A stretch of 64,000 nucleotides of DNA from assembly GCF_029428875.1 (NCBI RefSeq), contig NZ_JAJSOO010000001.1, positions 1,674,001 to 1,738,000 of the forward strand. The letters run 5' to 3'. The stretch is from Streptomyces sp. JH34 (GTDB taxonomy: Bacteria > Actinomycetota > Actinomycetes > Streptomycetales > Streptomycetaceae). Positions 2,798-27,225 of the stretch are shown in pieces. A program made the translations under genes and the position numbers. How positions within the stretch are numbered: position 1 is the first letter of the stretch; each line of letters starts with the position of its first letter. The notes under the pieces are model-generated. The model saw nothing but the letters and a program-made list of their open reading frames with translations. It was not told the origin of the DNA and made no database searches.

Positions 2798-4207
2798 TCA
2801 GCCGAACAGGCCGCGCAGCCAGCCGAAGAGTCCCGCCACCCACAGGGTGAACGGCAGCAGCGCGACGGCGAGGCCGGTGTGCGCCAGCTCCGCCGCACGG
2901 CCCCAGTACGGCAGCACACGGCGGCCGGGCAGTATCCAGGACGCGGTCACGAGTCCGGCCGCCGCGGCGAGCAGCACGCCGAAGACCACCACCCGGCCGT
3001 CCGCCCCGCTGTCGAACGCCCAGGCCCTGGCCATCAGCAGCAGCCCCAGGACCCCGGGCAGCGCCAGGGTCAGCCGCTGTCCGATGTGCACCAGGCCCCG
3101 GCTGTGCAGGAGGAGCAGGAGGCTCAGCGCGAGTCCCGTCAGCACCTCGGGCAGGTTCGGCCTCTCGGCGAGGACCACCAGGGCGGCCGCGGCGATGGTG
3201 CCGGTGGCGGCGAAGAGCGCGGTGACCCAGCGTCCGGCCAGCTCGGTGCGTTCGGCGACCTCGTCACCCACGTAGGGGTCGATGCCCTCCTGGAGCTGTC
3301 CGGCGGTGGACGGAAGCGCAGGCATCCGCATCCCGGCCAGTTTGAAGGCGAACGGTGCGACCGCCCCGGCGGCGAGGACCATCACCGTCGCCACCAGCGC
3401 CACCGCGGCAGGCACGTCCAGGCCGGTGTATCCCATCAGTGCCCCGGCGATCGCCGTGGCCACCGCGACCATCGCGGTGGCCAGCAGGGCCGGGGCGCCG
3501 ACCGCGGTGGCGGCGAGCGCGAGGACCGCGCCTCCCGCGCCCGCGGCGCCCGCGGCCAGGAGCCGGGCGCCGGCGACCTGCTCCGCGTCGGGGCCGGTCA
3601 GGTCGCCGCCGGGCAGCACCCAGCCGACCAGCGCCAGGCACGGTGCGACCAGCAGGCCGAGCGCGGTCGCGGAGAGGCGGTCACCGACCGCGCGGCTGGC
3701 GGAGCCCGCCCCCGCGAGCAGGAGTAGCCCGACCAAGGCCGCGCAGGCCGCCCGGGAGGCGCCGGAGCTGGTCGTCACCCCCGGCCAGAAGACCAGCACG
3801 AGGGCGGTCACCACGGTCGCCACCGCGGTGCCGATCAGCAGGCCACGGGCGGCGCCGGGCGACCACGTGCGCAGCCGTCGGCCCACGGTCTCCGCGATGC
3901 CGTCGACCAGGTCGTCGAGCCGTGCCTCGGGCAGCGCCTCGGTGTGCGGGCGCAGGTAGAGCACGGCGCCGTCGGCCAGCCCGGCACGTGCCAGGGTGGT
4001 CTCCTCGTCGAGCGGGGCGTCGCCCAGCCGCTGGAGCACCCAGCCGGCGTGGTCGAGTCCGGCCTCCTCGGCCTCCTCGCCGACGTAACGCAGCAGTGTG
4101 GGCAGCAGATCGGCGACCGGTACGTCGGCGGGCACCGCCAGATCGATGCTGACGCTCGGTGCACGTACGGTCAGGCGGCACGATTCGGCCACCGCGCTGT
4201 CGGTCAT
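2798..4207 (-). CDS. eccD: Type VII secretion integral membrane protein EccD
   Basis: The protein has 469 residues when started at the ATG at 4207 (MTDSAVAESCRL). Residues 1 to about 90 form the ubiquitin-like (YukD-type) cytoplasmic domain found in EccD, with the usual LLRYVGEEAE and LYLRPHTE segments. From about residue 115 there are roughly eleven hydrophobic segments, as expected for the pore-lining subunit of the ESX complex. Length fits the family. A longer upstream frame to 4387 exists but would add a basic, non-homologous N-terminus. It precedes eccB on the same strand and diverges from eccC across a 411-base gap. The ribosome site is weak (GACGAGAG), so the start is moderately certain. 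Confidence 0.94.
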   Translation of the reverse strand: MTDSAVAESCRLTVRAPSVSIDLAVPADVPVADLLPTLLRYVGEEAEEAGLDHAGWVLQRLGDAPLDEETTLARAGLADGAVLYLRPHTEALPEARLDDLVDGIAETVGRRLRTWSPGAARGLLIGTAVATVVTALVLVFWPGVTTSSGASRAACAALVGLLLLAGAGSASRAVGDRLSATALGLLVAPCLALVGWVLPGGDLTGPDAEQVAGARLLAAGAAGAGGAVLALAATAVGAPALLATAMVAVATAIAGALMGYTGLDVPAAVALVATVMVLAAGAVAPFAFKLAGMRMPALPSTAGQLQEGIDPYVGDEVAERTELAGRWVTALFAATGTIAAAALVVLAERPNLPEVLTGLALSLLLLLHSRGLVHIGQRLTLALPGVLGLLLMARAWAFDSGADGRVVVFGVLLAAAAGLVTASWILPGRRVLPYWGRAAELAHTGLAVALLPFTLWVAGLFGWLRGLFG

Positions 4208-4618
4208 CAGCTGAACTCTCGTCTTCCGGAAGGCTTTGACAGGAGGACTTCCCCGCGAGAGGGGATGTGCGAACAGTACGGAAGGTCCGCGCGGCCGCGA
4301 ACCGGGGGGCCGGGCGCGGAATTTGCCTCCGCGGGCCCCGGCGACGACCGCTCCCGCGTGGACAGGTCGCGTTCCGTGAATGCACACTACTGCCTACGAC
4401 CACGGGGTCGTGCTGCGGACCGGACTCCATTTATCCGGTATGTGGTTGGCCATCACGGAAGTGCCCGCACCCGGCCATCCGCTCGAAACATTCATCCGGC
4501 GTTCACCGCGCGTCACGTGGTGCCCGGGGAATCAGTGCGGTGCGGCCCTTTCCACCGCCGGGTGCGCCGGAATTCCGGTGCGGGCCGGAGAGTTCAGTGA
4601 ACCGGAGGTTCTGTTCCC
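4208..4618. other. Divergent control region between eccD and eccC
   Basis: This 411-base gap must hold the promoters for the leftward eccD-eccB unit and the rightward eccC gene. It is noticeably less GC-rich around 4380-4460. I found no convincing promoter boxes, operator palindrome or small ORF with a ribosome site. Confidence 0.5.
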
Positions 4619-19797: not shown

Positions 19798-19989
19798 TCA
19801 GCACTCCGACGCGAACCGCACGAACTGTCCCCAGCCTTCGCGGTCCACCGCGAACGCAGGAAGGGTCACGTCCTTGGAGTCCCTTACGTGCACGCCCTGT
19901 TCGGCGACCGCGACCTCCACGCAGCTGTCGCCCTCGCTCCCGCTGTAGCTGGACTTGAACCAGGCGAGTTCCGTAGTACCGCTGTTCAT
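19798..19989 (-). CDS. DUF397 protein, partner of XRE regulator
   Basis: The 63-residue protein has the DUF397 pattern: AWFKSSYSGSEG, CVEVA, VHVRDSKD and a final GWGQFV. DUF397 proteins are small partners of Streptomyces XRE/DUF5753 regulators; in the WhiJ-type systems of S. coelicolor the small protein modifies the repressor. Its ATG at 19989 overlaps the stop of the regulator gene (ATGA), so translation is coupled and the two are made in a fixed ratio. The pair with a divergent ATPase gene is a standard arrangement in this genus. Confidence 0.93.
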   Translation of the reverse strand: MNSGTTELAWFKSSYSGSEGDSCVEVAVAEQGVHVRDSKDVTLPAFAVDREGWGQFVRFASEC

Positions 19990-20867
19990 CGCTCTCCTCG
20001 AAGTCGCTCCAGCAAGGCCCGGGATTCGTTGGGGCTCAGGGCCTGCGAGCGCAGTGTGTCATAGCGTTGGCAGAGCACACTCACCTCTTTCGGGTCGGAG
20101 ATCAGCCGCCCGTTCTTCTGCCCCTCGGAGTAGCCCAACCGCCGCCCCTCCGGGGTCTCCAGCACCTGCACCGGCCCGTCCAGGCACGCGTGCAGCCCGG
20201 CCTCCAGCGGCACCACCTGAAGCGTCACGTTGCGTGGGGCGGTGAGCTCAATGACATGGTCCACCAACTCGCACATCATCTCCGCACCACCGAACCGCCG
20301 CCGGAACACGTGCTCCTCGACGATGAAGCTGAACGGCACAGTCGGCCGCTCCCGCATCATCGCCTTGCGTTCCATCCGCGCCGCCAGCTGCTCGCCCAGC
20401 TCCACGTCCGTCCGCAGGGGGATCGTGCCCTCGAACACCGCCCGCGCGTACGCCTCCGACTGCAACAACCCCGGCACCAGCCGGCACTCGTACGTGCACA
20501 GGCTGACCGCCTCCCGCTCCAGCCGCGCCCACCGCCGGAACCACGCCGCGAGGCCCGCCTCGCCCCGGGTGAGATGGCAGGCGGCCTTCCGCAGGGCACC
20601 GGTGTTGCCGAGCGCTTCCTCCGCACGCTCCACGAACACCTCGTCCGGCATCCGTCGGCCCAACTCCACCGACTCCACCGTGTGTTTGGAGTACTGGACC
20701 CGGGCGCCGAGCTCGATCCGGCTGAGTCCGGCGTGTTCGCGCAACGCCTGGACGACCGCGCCGAACGTGCGCAGACTGTCGGACGGGTGGGGTTCCCGCT
20801 CCCACTCCCCCGCCGGAACTCCCTGCGCGCCGACGCCCCCGGCCGCCTGCCCCACACCGATGCTCAT
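19986..20867 (-). CDS. XRE regulator with DUF5753 domain (WhiJ-like)
   Basis: From the ATG at 20867 the protein has 293 residues. Residues about 35-90 form a helix-turn-helix of XRE type (AGLSRIELGARVQYSKHTV), and the rest is the DUF5753 sensor-like domain (LVPGLLQSEAYARA, then VPFSFIVEEHVFRRRFGG). Regulators of this group act with DUF397 partners in developmental or antibiotic control. It is co-transcribed and translationally coupled with the DUF397 gene. An anti-sigma-type ATPase, here truncated, lies divergently upstream across 174 bases. A longer frame to 20930 lacks a better ribosome site. The specific target is unknown. Confidence 0.93.
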   Translation of the reverse strand: MSIGVGQAAGGVGAQGVPAGEWEREPHPSDSLRTFGAVVQALREHAGLSRIELGARVQYSKHTVESVELGRRMPDEVFVERAEEALGNTGALRKAACHLTRGEAGLAAWFRRWARLEREAVSLCTYECRLVPGLLQSEAYARAVFEGTIPLRTDVELGEQLAARMERKAMMRERPTVPFSFIVEEHVFRRRFGGAEMMCELVDHVIELTAPRNVTLQVVPLEAGLHACLDGPVQVLETPEGRRLGYSEGQKNGRLISDPKEVSVLCQRYDTLRSQALSPNESRALLERLRGER

Positions 20868-21041
20868 CCGGCCCCCGCCTTTCTCCGCACGGCACCGCGA
20901 CGGCTCCTGACAGCGCCCCGGGCTCACCACTCAGCGTGACGGAGCGGACCCCGTACTGTCCACTCTTCGTGCCCGTACGATGACTCCGCGTACGGGGTGC
21001 GGCTCTCGTCCCCAGGCGCGTCCTGCCGTCACTGTGGCGCC

Positions 21042-21290
21042 ATGAACCACGCGCTGCCCCAAGTCGGCCGCCCCACCCGCACCTTCTCCCAGCTCCTGTC
21101 GTCCACGCGACGCGGCGCCCGGCTGGCCAGACTGCTCGCCGGGACCGAGCTGAGGGCATGGGGTTCCCCGCAGGACCTCACGGAGCGTGCCGAGCTCGTG
21201 GTCGCGGAGCTCGCGGCCAACGCCGTCCTCCACGGCCTCGTACCGGGTCGCTGCTTCCGGCTCACCCTCGCCTACGACCCGGCGGCCGTA
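21042..21290 (+). pseudogene. Truncated anti-sigma-type HATPase (RsbW-like)
   Basis: The start is clear (MNHALPQVGRPTRTFSQ), and the ATPase N-box is present (AELVVAELAANAVLHG). After LTLAYDPA near 21285 the similarity stops: the G1/G2 boxes expected in the next 60 residues are absent from all three frames before the MFS gene begins. In this genus these RsbW/SpoIIAB-like ATP-binding proteins commonly sit opposite an XRE/DUF397 pair, as here. The loss coincides with the MFS gene upstream region, so the tail was probably replaced when that gene arrived. The frame stays open much further only by chance. Confidence 0.72.
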
Positions 21291-21444: not shown

Positions 21445-23025
21445 ATGAACGAACCCCCTTCCAGCAGCCCCGCCGTCGCGCACCGGTGGGTCTCACTGTT
21501 TGCGATCTGCACGGCCGCAGGGATGGTCTGGCTTGCGTTCGGCGACCTCAGTGTGGCGATTCCGCAGATCGCCGACGAGTTCAGCGGCAACCTGTCGAGC
21601 TTGCAGTGGGCGAACAACGCCTTCAGCCTCGTCACCGGTGCCCTCGTGATCACCGCCGGCAAGTTCGGCGATCTCTTCGGCCGCCGCCGGATGCTTCAGG
21701 TGGGCACGGTGCTGCTTGCTGCCTTCTCCGTGCCTGCCGCGCTCGCGCCCGACATCGGATGGCTGGTCCTCAGCCGTGGTCTCATGGGCATCGGCGCTGC
21801 GCTGATTCTGCCGGCCTCGCTCGCGCTCATCCCGCCCGAGTTCTCCGGAAAGGAGGAAACCACCGCGTTCAGTATCTGGCAGGCGGTGGCCTGGGGCGGG
21901 CTGTCCGTCGGGCCCGCGCTCAGCGGGGTCATCACGGACGGCCTCGGCTGGCGTTGGCTGTTCTGGATCAACCTGCCGCTCGCTGCGATCACTCTCGTAA
22001 TCGTCCGGGTCACGACTCCGGAGTCCCGCGACGAGAAGGCCGGTCACACGATCGACTGGCTGGGGCTGGCATCCATCGTCCTTGCGGTCTTCGCACTGTT
22101 GTACGCGCTCACCGAAGGGCCGAGCCGGGGATGGGGCAGCCCGCTGATCGTGGCGCTGTTCGTGGCAACCGCGGTGCTGGCGGTCGTGTGGTGGTTCGTC
22201 GAACGCCGTGTGAGCCAGCCGCTCGTGGACCTGAAGCTGTTCAAGATCCGGGCATACAACGGCGCGCTCGCGGCCAACCTCACGATGAACTTCACCTTTG
22301 CCGGGATGAGCTTCCTCCTCGTGCTCTGGCTGGAGAACGCACGCGGCTACAGCGCGGTGGAGGCCGGGGTGCTGATGCTGCCCGCCACCGTCGGGGTCTT
22401 CCTCTTCATTCCGCTCGGCGGCAGGCTCGCGATCCGGCGGGGCGGACGGCTTCCCGCGGTGGTGGGGCTCGTCGTGGCCGGCGCCGGCCTGACTCTGCTC
22501 GGTTCTCTCGGTACGCGCAGTTCGACGGAGTACCTCGCTGTCGCACTCATCGTCATCGGGCTCGGTCTGGGGTTGGTGAGCACCCCGGTGGCCAACACGA
22601 CCGTCGGAGAGGTCCCGATCGGTCTTGCGGGCACCGCTGCCGGTGTGTTCAAGATGTCCAGCATGCTCGGTGGCGCCCTCGGGGTCGCCGTCCTCACCGC
22701 GGTCGTCAGAGAACTCACGACGAGAGACGCGGCCTCTGTCGTCGAGGCGTCGGGGCTGACTCCGGCGGAGATCTCCCAGTTCCGCCAGGCATTGGTGAAC
22801 TCCTCGTCCTTCCGGGAAGCGATCGCCTCACTGCCGCCCGACCTCGGGCGCACCGTGCAGCAGGCAGCCGTCTCGGCGTTCTCATCCGGTGTCGCCGACA
22901 CGATGGCGGTCACGGCCGTCCTCACCTTCGTGGGGACGGCGGCCGTATTCCTCCTGTGGCCCCGCCGAAGCAAAGCCGACGCCACCGTCGCCGGGCCCCG
23001 ATCAGATGACCGGCCAGACCCGTAG
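21445..23025 (+). CDS. MFS drug exporter, DHA2 (14-helix) family
   Basis: The 526-residue protein has about 14 hydrophobic segments and the DHA2 motifs: motif A (GKFGDLFGRRR) between helices 2 and 3 and motif C (GPALSG) in helix 5. It belongs to the QacA/EmrB-type proton antiporters that export toxic organic compounds. The ATG at 21445 has GGAG about 10 bases upstream. It lies directly after the truncated ATPase and before a broken hydrolase gene, and uses somewhat more T/G-ending codons than its neighbours. This suggests acquisition by transfer. No adjacent TetR/MarR regulator is seen, and the substrate cannot be told. Confidence 0.92.
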   Translation: MNEPPSSSPAVAHRWVSLFAICTAAGMVWLAFGDLSVAIPQIADEFSGNLSSLQWANNAFSLVTGALVITAGKFGDLFGRRRMLQVGTVLLAAFSVPAALAPDIGWLVLSRGLMGIGAALILPASLALIPPEFSGKEETTAFSIWQAVAWGGLSVGPALSGVITDGLGWRWLFWINLPLAAITLVIVRVTTPESRDEKAGHTIDWLGLASIVLAVFALLYALTEGPSRGWGSPLIVALFVATAVLAVVWWFVERRVSQPLVDLKLFKIRAYNGALAANLTMNFTFAGMSFLLVLWLENARGYSAVEAGVLMLPATVGVFLFIPLGGRLAIRRGGRLPAVVGLVVAGAGLTLLGSLGTRSSTEYLAVALIVIGLGLGLVSTPVANTTVGEVPIGLAGTAAGVFKMSSMLGGALGVAVLTAVVRELTTRDAASVVEASGLTPAEISQFRQALVNSSSFREAIASLPPDLGRTVQQAAVSAFSSGVADTMAVTAVLTFVGTAAVFLLWPRRSKADATVAGPRSDDRPDP

Positions 23026-23469: not shown

Positions 23470-23673
23470 TCTCTGATAACCGGTAGGTAGAAGAAGGGGG
23501 TTGGGAAAACCTCCCCACCTCCCCACCCCGCCACGGCCAGCAAGTATGACTAAATGTGATCAGCTTGCAACGCGACGTCACGGCTGCTTACGGTGCCCCC
23601 AACGAAACGACCCCGACGCGGTGCGATCAACACCAGGCCGGGGTCTCACCCCAAGATCGAAGAGAGCGATCTC

Positions 23674-24816
23674 GTGGCTGCCAAGAACCTTAGCTCTGCC
23701 CTGCGCACCCCCGCACCCTCCCGCCCGTACCCGAAGTCCCCCCGCGGCTACGGCAAGCGATCCGCACCGGACCAAAGCCCGCCGCACGCGTCCGACTTCG
23801 CGCTGCTGCCCGAGCGTGAGCGCCACATCGCGGGTTACGTCGACCACCTCCCCGACGGCTCGGCCATGGACATCAAGACGCTGGCCAAGCACCTTCCGCT
23901 GTACGGTCAGATGGCCGTCGGCAGCGCCCTGAGGGCCCTGACCGTCGCGGGTCACCTGCGACGCGCACAGTGCCGGACCGGCGAGGGCGAGAGCCGTTGG
24001 GTCACTCTCACGTACTGGTCCCGCACCGCCCGGGACAACGAGTGGTGGAACGCCTTCGCGGCAGCCGAGAACACCCGGGTCGTAGCCCAGGAAGCCGCAG
24101 CGCTCCCGACCGGGCCGCCGCCCCCGTGGGCCCCGGTCGACACTCCCGCCGAACAGGAGGTCGCCGCAGGGACACCGGCCCCGCAGACCGCCGCCCCCGA
24201 AACCACCGAGGCACCCCCCACGCAGGCCACCGAAGCACCCCCCGCCACGCCCCCCGGGCTCGCCCCACGCCCGGCCCCGCAACCGGCCCCGCAGCCCACC
24301 CCCGCTCACGCCCCGCCCGTGCCGCGACAGCGCACCCCGGAGCCGGTCGCAGGCGGCCACCCTTCTCCCGCCTACCTCGCCCTGGCCCGACTCGGCCTCA
24401 CCGACCCCCGCCTGGCCCTCTCCGCCGCCGACTGCACCGTTCTCGAGGAGCTGGCCGCCGCCTGGCTGGACCGGGGCGTGAGCACGGACTACCTCACCCA
24501 CGCACTCACCTCCGGCCTCCCCACCCAGGTCGATTCCCCGGTCGGCTTCGTACGCCGCCGCCTCCGGGACAAGCTCCCCCCGCACCTGCCCGCCACCCCC
24601 GCACCGACCGCGCCGAACTCTCCCGTACGGCGCCTTCTCGTCGAATGCACCCAATGCGGCAGGCCCGGCCCCTCCGAAACACTCCCCGACGGCCTCTGCC
24701 GCCCCTGCCGCACCCCGGCACCCGAAAGCGCCCCCGCAGACCCCGCCGACCAGCCCGCCGAACGCGACATCCACGCCCTGGTCGGCAGCCTCCGCAACCT
24801 GATGCGGACTCCGTGA
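23674..24816 (+). CDS. Winged-helix/zinc-ribbon protein, Streptomyces accessory type
   Basis: From the GTG at 23674 the protein has 380 residues. Residues about 40-130 look like a winged helix-turn-helix (LPERERHIAGYVDHLPDGS, IKTLAKHLP, VGSALRALTVAGHLRRA). A long Pro/Ala linker follows, then a helical segment (LARLGLTDPRLALSAADC), and near the end a zinc-ribbon pattern CTQC-x15-CRPC. It ends in RDIHALVGSLRNLMRTP. MarR-like DNA binding is plausible but the target is unknown. A GTG at 23593 is an alternative start; I prefer 23674 for its AAGAGAG. Fragments matching its C-terminus recur at 25145-25180 and 37296-37358. Confidence 0.72.
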   Translation: MAAKNLSSALRTPAPSRPYPKSPRGYGKRSAPDQSPPHASDFALLPERERHIAGYVDHLPDGSAMDIKTLAKHLPLYGQMAVGSALRALTVAGHLRRAQCRTGEGESRWVTLTYWSRTARDNEWWNAFAAAENTRVVAQEAAALPTGPPPPWAPVDTPAEQEVAAGTPAPQTAAPETTEAPPTQATEAPPATPPGLAPRPAPQPAPQPTPAHAPPVPRQRTPEPVAGGHPSPAYLALARLGLTDPRLALSAADCTVLEELAAAWLDRGVSTDYLTHALTSGLPTQVDSPVGFVRRRLRDKLPPHLPATPAPTAPNSPVRRLLVECTQCGRPGPSETLPDGLCRPCRTPAPESAPADPADQPAERDIHALVGSLRNLMRTP

Positions 24817-24824
24817 ACCGACCT
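24790..24824 (+). repeat. Left arm of an inverted duplication
   Basis: These 35 bases, which include the stop of the winged-helix gene, recur in inverted orientation at 25145-25180 with one mismatch and one inserted base; the 25 bases 24800-24824 are identical. The arms enclose about 320 bases. Confidence 0.93.
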
Positions 24825-25144
24825 GCGCATTCCTATGACGGCGGAATCCGTCACGCTCGTTCAAGGGCTCGCCACTGCGCACTGCTCAAGGCTCCGCACA
24901 AATCGCCTCGACCGGACGGCTCTTCCGGCGTGACATGAGAGGGGCTGTACGGACGCCGCGATACGGCCGCGCCTGGTGGAGAGGGGCACGGACTCGTCAG
25001 GCGTTCTCGTCGTGAATCCGCGCCCCAAGGTCCTCCGCCCACTCCAGCGCCCACGCTTTGAGCTCTTCGATCTGCCGGGCGGTGAGCCCGTACGCGGCGT
25101 AGTCCTCGTCCTCGTACCAGTCCGCACCGGTGAGCCGGTCACGG
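24825..25144. other. Segment between the inverted arms
   Basis: This 320-base segment contains the minus-strand coding remnant at 24997-25152 and otherwise nothing recognisable. It does not resemble an insertion sequence, since no transposase fragment is visible. Confidence 0.5.
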
Positions 25145-25152
25145 AGGTCGGT
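24997..25152 (-). pseudogene. C-terminal remnant of an acidic small protein
   Basis: Fifty-one codons with strong coding character (LTGADWYEDEDYAAYGLTA, then IEELKAWALEWAEDL) end at a stop at 24997. They have no start codon: an in-frame TGA lies immediately upstream, inside the right inverted-repeat arm. The fragment therefore looks like the 3' part of a gene cut off by the duplication. The family is not recognised. Confidence 0.55.
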
Positions 25153-25180
25153 TCACGGAGTCCGCATCAGGGTGGCGGAG
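25145..25180 (-). repeat. Right arm of the inverted duplication
   Basis: This is the inverted copy of 24790-24824. It lies about 90 bases upstream of the reverse transcriptase gene and breaks the small minus-strand gene. Confidence 0.93.
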
Positions 25181-25271
25181 GGATACAGCGGACCGCCAGT
25201 AGCGGGGCGGTGGAACGACTCAAGGTGAGGCCCGCCGACTGCGTCTCACAGGTGAGGGACGAGGCGGTTCG

Positions 25272-26738
25272 GTGACCATGGCAGACAACTTCCTGCACCT
25301 CTCCCACACGCAGTTCCTCAAGGCGGTGGTCGGCGGCTCGATCTTCCCGTACACCGAGCACCGGATCCCCAAACCCAGCGGCGGAATACGGACCTTGCAC
25401 GCTCCGGTCCCGCGGCTGTCCGTGTTGCAGCAGGGGATTCTGGCCCGTCTGGGGACTCTTCCAGCCAGGTTCCAGCCTCACCCGGCAGCGTTCGCCTACC
25501 GAGGTGGCCGCTCGGTCGTGGACTGTGCCGCCATCCATCTACGTGCCCACACCGTGATCCGCCTGGACATCGCCGACTTCTTCGGGAGCATCCGCGAGCG
25601 ACATGTCCACGCCGCGCTGAAAGACGCCTGGGCTCGCCCGACGGAGCGGAAGTACCGGATCGATCTTGTGGAGGACGGTGACGGCCGCCGGGACGTCGGC
25701 CTGCGTCGTGTCGGCCGCACCCTGAGTACGTACACCACCGCACGGCTGGTCACCGTGTCTCCGCCCGGGCCGAGTCGGACGTGGACGAACCGTGGCACCG
25801 GGCGTCGCAGCGTGTACCTGGAGGCCACGGGGCAGAGCTTCACCGTCAGTAGGCCCGAGCTGCTCCACAAGGACACCCGCGAGGGGTTCCTGCCTCAGGG
25901 CGCTCCCACAAGCGGATACCTGTCGAACATCGTCATGCGCGACGTCGACGCCGCGATCACGCACCTGGCAGAGTCCTTGGGTCTGCGCTACACGCGCTAC
26001 AGCGACGACATGTACTTCTCCAGCCGGCGGCTCGTCCGCCACGAGAAGGCCGACCGCCTCGTGGACGGCGTGAAGAAGGCACTGACCCCGCTGGGCATGA
26101 AACTCAACACGAAGAAGACCTACGTGGCCCGTTCCGGCGCGCGCCGCAGCGTGCTGGGCATCCTTGTCGACGGCCCCACTCCGCGGCTGACGCGCGAGTA
26201 CAAGCGCCGCATCACCAAGCATGTGCGCGGAGCCGCGTCGTTCGGTATCGAGCAGCACAGCCGTCACCAGGGGTTCAAGGGCCTGGCCGACTTGGACGCC
26301 CACGTGACCGGGCTGCTGTCGTTCGCGCACATGGTCGAGCCCGGCTGGGCCGGGGAACAACTCACGGACTGGAAGCGGCTGCGCGAGATCCCGTTCGAGC
26401 ACGAAGAACCAGTGATCACGCAGCACGGTCTCGATTGGTACTGGGACGAAGAGGTCGAGGTCTCGCAGTCGTCAGACCTGGCCAAGGCATCCATCGACGA
26501 CCTCGTGCGCGGCGCCCAGCGCATCGCCGCTGCTGATCTTCCAGCCGCGCGGGCCCTACATGCTCGTGTACGACGTCGGGGACACCGAAGCCCTGCCCGG
26601 GGCTCAGCCTTTGCCCAGGACGATCACCGCCCCCGCGTCGGTGTCCTCTCGCGTCGGCGAGAAGGGGCTCGTCGAGGTCTGGCACCACACCAGGACGAAC
26701 CTCGCGCCCCTGGGAATCCGTCTCACCCTGGTCAATGA
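25272..26738 (+). CDS. Retron-like reverse transcriptase (3' part overlaps peptidase frame)
   Basis: The frame has 488 codons, of which about 1-425 look like real protein. Reverse transcriptase motifs are complete: motif A RLDIADFF (Asp99), LPQGAPTSGYLSN (207-219) and the catalytic YSDD (243-246). CAAIH (85-89) sits where retron RTs have NAxxH, and VLG (294-296) where they have VTG. An insert of about 75 residues separates motif A from the LPQG motif. After about residue 425 the frame reads through the overlapping peptidase gene and becomes Arg-rich and non-homologous. The GTG start at 25272 follows GAGG by 7 bases. Retron RTs copy a nearby structured RNA and act in phage defence; an RNA partner is not proven here. 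Confidence 0.88.
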   Translation: MTMADNFLHLSHTQFLKAVVGGSIFPYTEHRIPKPSGGIRTLHAPVPRLSVLQQGILARLGTLPARFQPHPAAFAYRGGRSVVDCAAIHLRAHTVIRLDIADFFGSIRERHVHAALKDAWARPTERKYRIDLVEDGDGRRDVGLRRVGRTLSTYTTARLVTVSPPGPSRTWTNRGTGRRSVYLEATGQSFTVSRPELLHKDTREGFLPQGAPTSGYLSNIVMRDVDAAITHLAESLGLRYTRYSDDMYFSSRRLVRHEKADRLVDGVKKALTPLGMKLNTKKTYVARSGARRSVLGILVDGPTPRLTREYKRRITKHVRGAASFGIEQHSRHQGFKGLADLDAHVTGLLSFAHMVEPGWAGEQLTDWKRLREIPFEHEEPVITQHGLDWYWDEEVEVSQSSDLAKASIDDLVRGAQRIAAADLPAARALHARVRRRGHRSPARGSAFAQDDHRPRVGVLSRRREGARRGLAPHQDEPRAPGNPSHPGQ

Positions 26739-27225
26739 CGGGGCCTCCTCCTACGGGCGTGCGTATCGCACCAGGTCCGGCGGGTTCGTCGAGCGTTCCG
26801 GCAGCAGGCCCGGGGATCGACCGGAGAGGTACCCGACGCTGTTCGAGATCGAGGTCAACCGGAACCTGCCTCTGCTGGACCGGTACGCCACCCTTGCCCA
26901 CGAGCTCGGCCATCTGTTGTGCGGGCATCTCGGTGCGGGCCCCGGGGGCTCCTGGCCCGACCGGAGATCGCGGCCCTTCTCGGACGAGGAACGCGTCACG
27001 GCCCATGCCCGCAATGAGGTCGAGGCCGAGTCCATCGCCTACATGGTCCTCAAACGGCTGGACCCGGATGTCCAGATGGGCGACTACATCATCGGACACC
27101 TCGGCGTCGGCCAGCAGGTTCCGGAGAGCGTTGCGCTCAACCTCACGTTCAAGGCCGCCGGCCTGATCATCGAGATGGGCGCAAAGCGCCTCTCTGCTAC
27201 CAAGCTCCAGAAGCCCAAGAAGTAG
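26560..27225 (+). CDS. ImmA/IrrE-type zinc metallopeptidase domain
   Basis: The 221-residue protein carries HELGH (114-118) and a downstream acidic ligand in NEVEAESIAY (about Glu155), the zinc site of ImmA/IrrE peptidases, which cleave repressors in mobile-element and stress responses. Homologous-looking sequence continues upstream of the ATG in the same frame (LLIFQPRGPY, from about 26530), and no ribosome site precedes the ATG. The domain may therefore originally have been fused to the reverse transcriptase, with a +1 shift near 26530-26550. Alternatively it is a separate gene translated by coupling. It ends 113 bases before the TetR gene. The peptidase call is firm; the start is not. Confidence 0.82.
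   Translation: MLVYDVGDTEALPGAQPLPRTITAPASVSSRVGEKGLVEVWHHTRTNLAPLGIRLTLVNDGASSYGRAYRTRSGGFVERSGSRPGDRPERYPTLFEIEVNRNLPLLDRYATLAHELGHLLCGHLGAGPGGSWPDRRSRPFSDEERVTAHARNEVEAESIAYMVLKRLDPDVQMGDYIIGHLGVGQQVPESVALNLTFKAAGLIIEMGAKRLSATKLQKPKK

Follow-up and report, generated by a model that had tools for sequence, protein, structure and literature searches.

The reverse transcriptase (RT)-peptidase locus of the window (the whole stretch of 64,000 nucleotides that was analysed) is very probably a single-gene retron copy that has lost its function, and probably not long ago; in this kind of retron an RT of the III-A clade is fused to an ArdC-like effector. The evidence, all of it read from sequence, consists of the fusion of RT and peptidase in relatives, a conserved and paired RNA upstream, the ArdC-like architecture of the effector, the lack of a detectable PRTase, and two lesions in the window. 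The original prediction of a retron-like RT linked to a zinc peptidase is borne out; an intact system in this genome is not supported. The features of the locus are the following.

19986-20930, minus strand: homologue of an XRE/DUF5753 regulator (tblastn; Pfam of the L011 homologue)
24798-24823, plus strand: one of the two arms of an inverted repeat (26 bp, perfect), located where gene 23593-24816 ends (2 matches in the window; none in 100 shuffles)
25146-25171, minus strand: second arm of this 26-bp repeat, bordering on the ncRNA remnant
25168-25247, plus strand: ncRNA remnant, about the 3' 80 nt with the a2 arm (about 25226-25244) (blastn, upstream alignment, RNA model)
25272-26522, plus strand: RT domain, with its reading frame kept as far as the deletion, equivalent to residues 1-416 of the L008 fused protein (RVT_1, PADLOC RT_III-A)
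26511-26528, plus strand: deletion junction, with a net 167 bp lost relative to L008, the frame changed and about residues 417-473 gone (alignment with relatives)
26523-26738, plus strand: out-of-frame tail of the RT ORF, 71 residues, peptidase DNA read in another frame than in the relatives
26560-27225, plus strand: rest of the ArdC-like effector with the zincin peptidase domain (HELGH ... EVEAE), from an internal ATG, with homology reaching back to 26515

The homologue search suggested alongside the original prediction recorded RT and peptidase as one gene, in one frame and of 671-706 aa, in 11 of the 11 loci with both parts complete. Ten of these loci belong to Streptomycetaceae (L008-L015, L036 and L037), and L071 comes from another actinobacterial family. 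The scan of named genomes returned 10 loci: L008-L015 matched the whole RT at 77-93% identity and carried an uninterrupted RT-peptidase frame in 8/8 cases (702-706 aa from the aligned start), and the remaining two were an unfused relative (L016) and a partial match (L017). Searches of whole genomes added L036 and L037 from the same genus and L071 (671 aa). Duplicate loci were counted once, by contig and place (L003 = L009; L004 = L026 = L014; L005 = L015; L024 = L035 = L012; L025 = L036; L027 = L037).

The lineage was present in 4 of the 392 genomes of the genus sample, the window's included, and a related unfused RT in 2 (E ≤ 1e-20). At the level of the order, the effector was found in 5 of 391 genomes at E ≤ 1e-8, again counting its own. 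The effector profile matched 24 of the 345 genomes of the class sample at E ≤ 1e-6; the strong matches (E 5.4e-79 or better) were confined to the window's own genome, G1266 (fused, L071) and G1315 (standalone, L072), and the best of the other 21 reached about 2e-12. In the phylum sample the III-A model matched 5/396 genomes at E ≤ 1e-40, comprising the own genome and L031-L034, with L032 typed as RT_other. Viral contigs yielded 3 pattern matches and 0 relatives, and the phage records held no match to the effector. The partial match, L017 of Streptomyces roseolilacinus (3989-4497), comprises two RT pieces, together residues 38-204, and 55 nt from the 5' part of the ncRNA, which adjoin an internal RT segment or overlap with it; it looks like another decayed retron copy.

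The window lies in a genome of 7.29 Mb (2 contigs, 99.99% complete) with a single RVT_1 match. Its RT ORF (25272-26738, plus strand) matched Pfam RVT_1 at E 5.3e-17, and the catalytic core that had been described as intact was recovered, with DIADFF at Asp99 and RYSDD at 242. The altered retron signatures were likewise present, CAAIH at 85 and VLG at 294. RYSDD and VLG were found in 11/11 fused relatives and CAAIH or CAAVH in 9/11, while L071 has CAHVH and L036 is a variant. An unusual insert of about 75 residues after motif A had also been proposed. The 143 residues that separate Asp-A from YSDD in the window compare with 142-143 in the 10 Streptomycetaceae relatives and 117 in L071, so that the insert is mostly a trait of the lineage. 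The peptidase ORF (26560-27225, +1 frame) contains HELGH and scored 22.2 bits against Peptidase_M78, with a cut-off of 22. As the earlier reading had noted, peptidase homology begins before the ATG, from 26515, and no ribosome site is evident there.

Each half of the window locus has about 93% identity with its L008 counterpart (residues 1-416 and residues 470-701), and 8/8 of the named relatives aligned carry extra sequence at the joint. The net loss of 167 bp shifted the frame, which accounts for the apparent ORF overlap seen by the earlier reader, and the alignment indicates that the 71-residue tail of the RT ORF is a by-product of this deletion. The lost region is part of the domain related to the ssDNA-binding domain of ArdC (ArdC-N-like). 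The idea of an RT-peptidase fusion split by a shift is therefore retained for the single-frame fusion, as found in the homologues; a programmed frameshift or a one-base error was ruled out, since a net 167 bp is absent at the joint compared with L008.

The second lesion affects the RNA. The stretch of about 190 nt that precedes the RT shows high conservation among 10 relatives and adopts one fold, with a 19-bp a1/a2 closing helix and inner hairpins. In complete relatives this ncRNA lies just upstream of, or overlaps, the start of the fused gene, and measures 148 nt in the most distant one. Across 10 sequences and 58 consensus pairs, 97.9% of cells were paired, compared with 40-47% in slid controls, in which the partners were moved by 1-3 columns. 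Among the 10 Streptomycetaceae ncRNAs, 7 cells were changed on both sides, a number reached by 0/500 shuffles; counted by pairs the signal is modest, with 2 pairs changed on both sides (176/500 shuffles reach that) and further pair types not above shuffles (reached by 419/500). The L008 ncRNA folded with z -3.57, and 0/200 shuffles were as good. A covariance model built from the 10 ncRNAs gave one match in the L071 genome (37.8 bits, E 3.9e-5; 150 of 9,163 first-look candidates scored), located at L071:3316-3463 and overlapping the start of the fused ORF (from 3416). With L071 added, both-side changes were found in 20/58 pairs, a count biased upwards because the alignment was fitted to the model. 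The same model had no match in G251, a genome with a PRTase-type III-A RT (150 of 16,532 candidates scored). No Rfam family reached threshold; the sole match (E 0.41, below the gathering score) lay within the RT gene and was taken as chance.

A structured ncRNA with a1/a2 next to the RT, a feature of retrons, is present in the 11 complete relatives, and in the window it survives only in part. By blastn, the window matched positions 110-189 of the 189-nt L011 ncRNA at 93.75%, and a1, the msr part and the 5' hairpins are gone. This remnant (25168-25247) lies upstream of the region covered by the original prediction and was overlooked there. The model scored the window at 49.6 bits, compared with 189-221 for intact copies, and also aligned across the replaced DNA (25095-25247). 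That stretch folded no better than shuffles (z -0.38; 67/200 as good), so only the 3' part was counted as homologous ncRNA. No second or better ncRNA was found in the window's genome by DNA search (35/35 candidates) or by the RNA model (150 of 16,349 candidates scored).

The 5' part of the ncRNA is replaced in the window by other DNA that ends in one arm of the 26-bp inverted repeat, and comparison with relatives indicates that this repeat is part of the rearrangement. The repeat (24798-24823/25146-25171) was also considered as the a1/a2 of a long ncRNA and rejected, because in the relatives a1/a2 is a separate pair and the DNA at this place differs. It encloses a minus-strand fragment (25000-25140), the last 17 residues of which have a 94% match in L008. 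Taken as a whole, 24798-25171 looks like an inversion or rearrangement scar adjoining the retron. Farther upstream, the XRE regulator and an HATPase of the window have homologues near the retron in 4/10 Streptomycetaceae relatives (L008, L011, L013 and L037). The HATPase gene stands beside the retron in L011, L013 and L037 and is in two pieces in L008. In the window, 20970-21278 shows homology to residues 2-104 of the 171-aa L011 HATPase, and an MFS gene (21445-23025) comes next, so that the HATPase gene looks truncated.

The zinc peptidase with HELGH proposed originally is confirmed, but the ImmA/IrrE label proved too narrow for an effector that is ArdC-like, with an ssDNA-binding domain as well as the peptidase. 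HELGH and EVEAE occur in the window and in 10/10 Streptomycetaceae relatives, and HELAH and EVEAE in L071. The glutamate motif and HELGH are in common with ImmA/IrrE (Pfam M78), yet the M78 score is marginal (18.5-20.8 bits in L008 and L010 and 16.7 in L071, with a cut-off of 22), and an extra ArdC-type N-domain is present here. A plasmid search with the intact effector region returned 7 records, 3 of them annotated as ArdC-like ssDNA-binding. Pfam ArdcN was detected in L040 and L041, both ArdC-like, of the five homologues scanned; it was absent from the fused proteins and from 3/3 closer standalone homologues (L029, L030 and L039). Comparison by hhalign of the effector profile, A6 (fused effectors plus L029, L030 and L039), with L040 and L041 gave 99.4% (E 1.8e-21) and covered both domains. 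In the PDB profile search at E ≤ 1, only ArdC 6sna and 6i89 matched, at E about 0.03 and over the peptidase part alone; the link of the N-domain to ArdC is hence drawn from hhalign with the two ArdcN-bearing proteins. AlphaFold models were of low confidence (pLDDT 42 and 36).

By profile comparison, the whole effector is thus assigned as ArdC-like, with an ssDNA-binding-type N-domain and a zincin metallopeptidase. According to PMC7213743, plasmid ArdC consists of an N-terminal domain that binds ssDNA non-specifically and a metalloprotease domain behind it, and its antirestriction did not need protease activity. The fused relatives have the same order, ArdC-N and then an IrrE-like zincin peptidase, as plasmid ArdC (6i89, 6sna; PMC7213743), and the N-domain is largely deleted in the window. 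The effector differs from plasmid ArdC in sitting behind an RT and beside a conserved ncRNA.

Standalone effectors were also observed. On Microvirga and Haematobacter plasmids (L029 and L039) they are located among DEAD/DEAH helicase, UvrD, N-6 methylase and DUF3883 genes, surroundings that look like uncharacterised defence islands; at E 1e-10, neither of the two effectors matched a PADLOC model. An actinobacterium carries a standalone effector homologue of 338 aa (L072:4348-5364), preceded by a 554-aa gene that on visual inspection resembles a helicase; the same inspection showed no RT in the vicinity.

The best PADLOC model for the window RT was RT_III-A PDLC02944 (E 2e-99, 332 bits), and the next, also III-A, reached 2.4e-51. 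PDLC02944 (597 positions) matched L008 residues 13-685 in one stretch (508.5 bits, E 9.2e-153), spanning RT and tail, which suggests that fused members are probably among its seeds. Its RT part also matched the unfused relatives L006, L016 and L075-L078, so the model seems to mix both kinds. The window RT scored 161.5 bits against NCBIfam retron St85 (cut-off 235), compared with 63.3 against the group II intron RT, and the best PDB matches were retron RTs, such as Ec78, Ec83 and Ec86. The tree comprised 24 RTs; the 12 from fused loci, among them the window RT, formed one clade (99/99), which joined the Streptomyces PRTase-type RTs at a weak 87/77 with several long branches; the group II intron row was a chosen outgroup, and its place is no evidence. 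The checks that could have spoken against a retron favour one when run on the relatives: the upstream RNA is conserved, the RT scores far above group II intron models, and the fusion holds in 11/11.

According to PMC12548924, type III retrons are marked by a PRTase and a DNA-binding protein. A PRTase_III-A gene directly precedes the unfused RT in L016, L075 and L076, and L073/L074 contain a 27%-identical region (tblastn); these matches cover L016 and L073-L076, and PRT on L077 and L078 in the tree is a label alone. With one L016 query (tblastn, E ≤ 0.01; flanks of about 2-4 kb, including 706 N in L008 and 100 in L011), no PRTase was found in the 11 fused loci or the window, with matches in L016, L073 and L074; a very divergent PRTase could be missed at this scope. 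PRTase_III-A was also absent among 10 neighbour proteins of L009, L011, L014, L015 and the window, two of which had other matches (PDC-S62 and a weak RmrA). The fused lineage thus has its RT clade in common with retron type III-A (PDLC02944 being the best model), but type III-A has a PRTase gene, whereas in the fused lineage none was detected and an ArdC-like effector is fused to the RT; nor did G251, with its PRTase-type RT, match the fused-lineage ncRNA model (150/16,532 candidates scored). In PADLOC, the I-C Toprim, XI protease and XII TIR types also consist of one gene with the effector behind the RT; those of these fused-effector types among the model matches listed scored 105-147 bits, compared with 332 for III-A, and the effector of the fused lineage differs from theirs as an ArdC-like metallopeptidase.

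Other readings of the locus were weighed. The two ORFs might constitute a working two-gene or frameshifted retron that evolved by splitting the fusion, with the peptidase translated independently. Both ORFs are open, synonymous changes predominate on the window branch (27:14 and 8:2), ArdC-like effectors also occur as standalone proteins (L029, L030, L039 and L072), and the replaced upstream DNA (about 25096-25104) pairs by chance with the a2 region in the predicted fold. Nevertheless, the ArdC-N-like domain is partly lost with the cut, the RT ends in 71 residues read out of frame, no ribosome site is evident, complete relatives are fused in 11/11, and the ncRNA lacks a1 and the 5' part, with the model-matched stretch folding like shuffles (z -0.38), all of which makes a working split system highly improbable. 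We also regard it as very unlikely that the deletion and the rearrangement are assembly artefacts in a strain with an intact fused gene and ncRNA. Short repeats flanking the joint in L008 (GGCGCCCAGC / GGTGCCCAGC) would fit such an error, but the genome (2 contigs, 99.99% complete) shows two distinct lesions some 1.3 kb from each other, a net loss of 167 bp is no base-call error, DNA and model searches of the assembly found no other copy of the missing RNA part, and a decayed-looking copy also occurs in S. roseolilacinus (L017).

An alternative concerning the relatives is that their fused gene is an ArdC-like establishment or antirestriction protein of mobile DNA with a captured RT, and not a defence retron. 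ArdC is a plasmid antirestriction protein (PMC7213743), and ArdC-like homologues are located on plasmids. We consider this unlikely, since 4/10 relatives have the regulator-HATPase neighbourhood in common with the window, both the III-A RT and the conserved ncRNA with its a1/a2 helix are typical of retrons, and no phage record matched the effector.

The preferred reading is that the intact single-gene retron probably acts as an anti-phage device. The RT would make msDNA from the ncRNA, and the msDNA or ncRNA would bind the fused ssDNA-binding domain and hold the peptidase inactive; phage events that alter the msDNA, or a flood of other ssDNA, could then switch the peptidase on, and the released peptidase might cleave a host or phage protein, so that growth stops. 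Control of the fused peptidase by msDNA is suggested by analogy with a number of studied retrons, whose effector is directly restrained or switched by msDNA according to the review PMC12948488. The window copy is expected to produce neither normal msDNA nor a whole effector. With L011 as outgroup, synonymous and nonsynonymous changes on the window branch were 27:14 in the RT part and 8:2 in the peptidase part, and those on the branch of the intact L008 were 9:8 and 13:7, respectively. The mainly synonymous changes on the window branch, with no sign of relaxation, suggest a recent loss or some remaining constraint, and the remaining window sequence may still be under selection.

The kind of system (a retron) and the III-A RT clade are known, and the fused tail is contained, unnamed, in a public PADLOC model. 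Among the open-licence literature listed, no title or start of an abstract referred to an ArdC-like or metallopeptidase retron effector. We tentatively propose, as a plausible reading that could readily prove wrong, that an actinobacterial retron lineage swapped the III-A PRTase for a fused ArdC-like ssDNA-binding metallopeptidase, whose own ssDNA-binding domain would directly sense the msDNA, and that the defence would be executed by a zincin protease in place of a nuclease, NADase or PRTase. The window copy exemplifies decay in which both the RNA and the joint to the effector suffered and the RT frame remained open; it poses the question of which order of loss is tolerated. If the intact relatives work as retrons, the effector would be exchangeable within one RT clade, and the relatives would offer a one-gene test of the restraint of an effector by msDNA, with direct assays of ssDNA binding by the domain concerned, as well as a Streptomyces-native ncRNA of about 190 nt.
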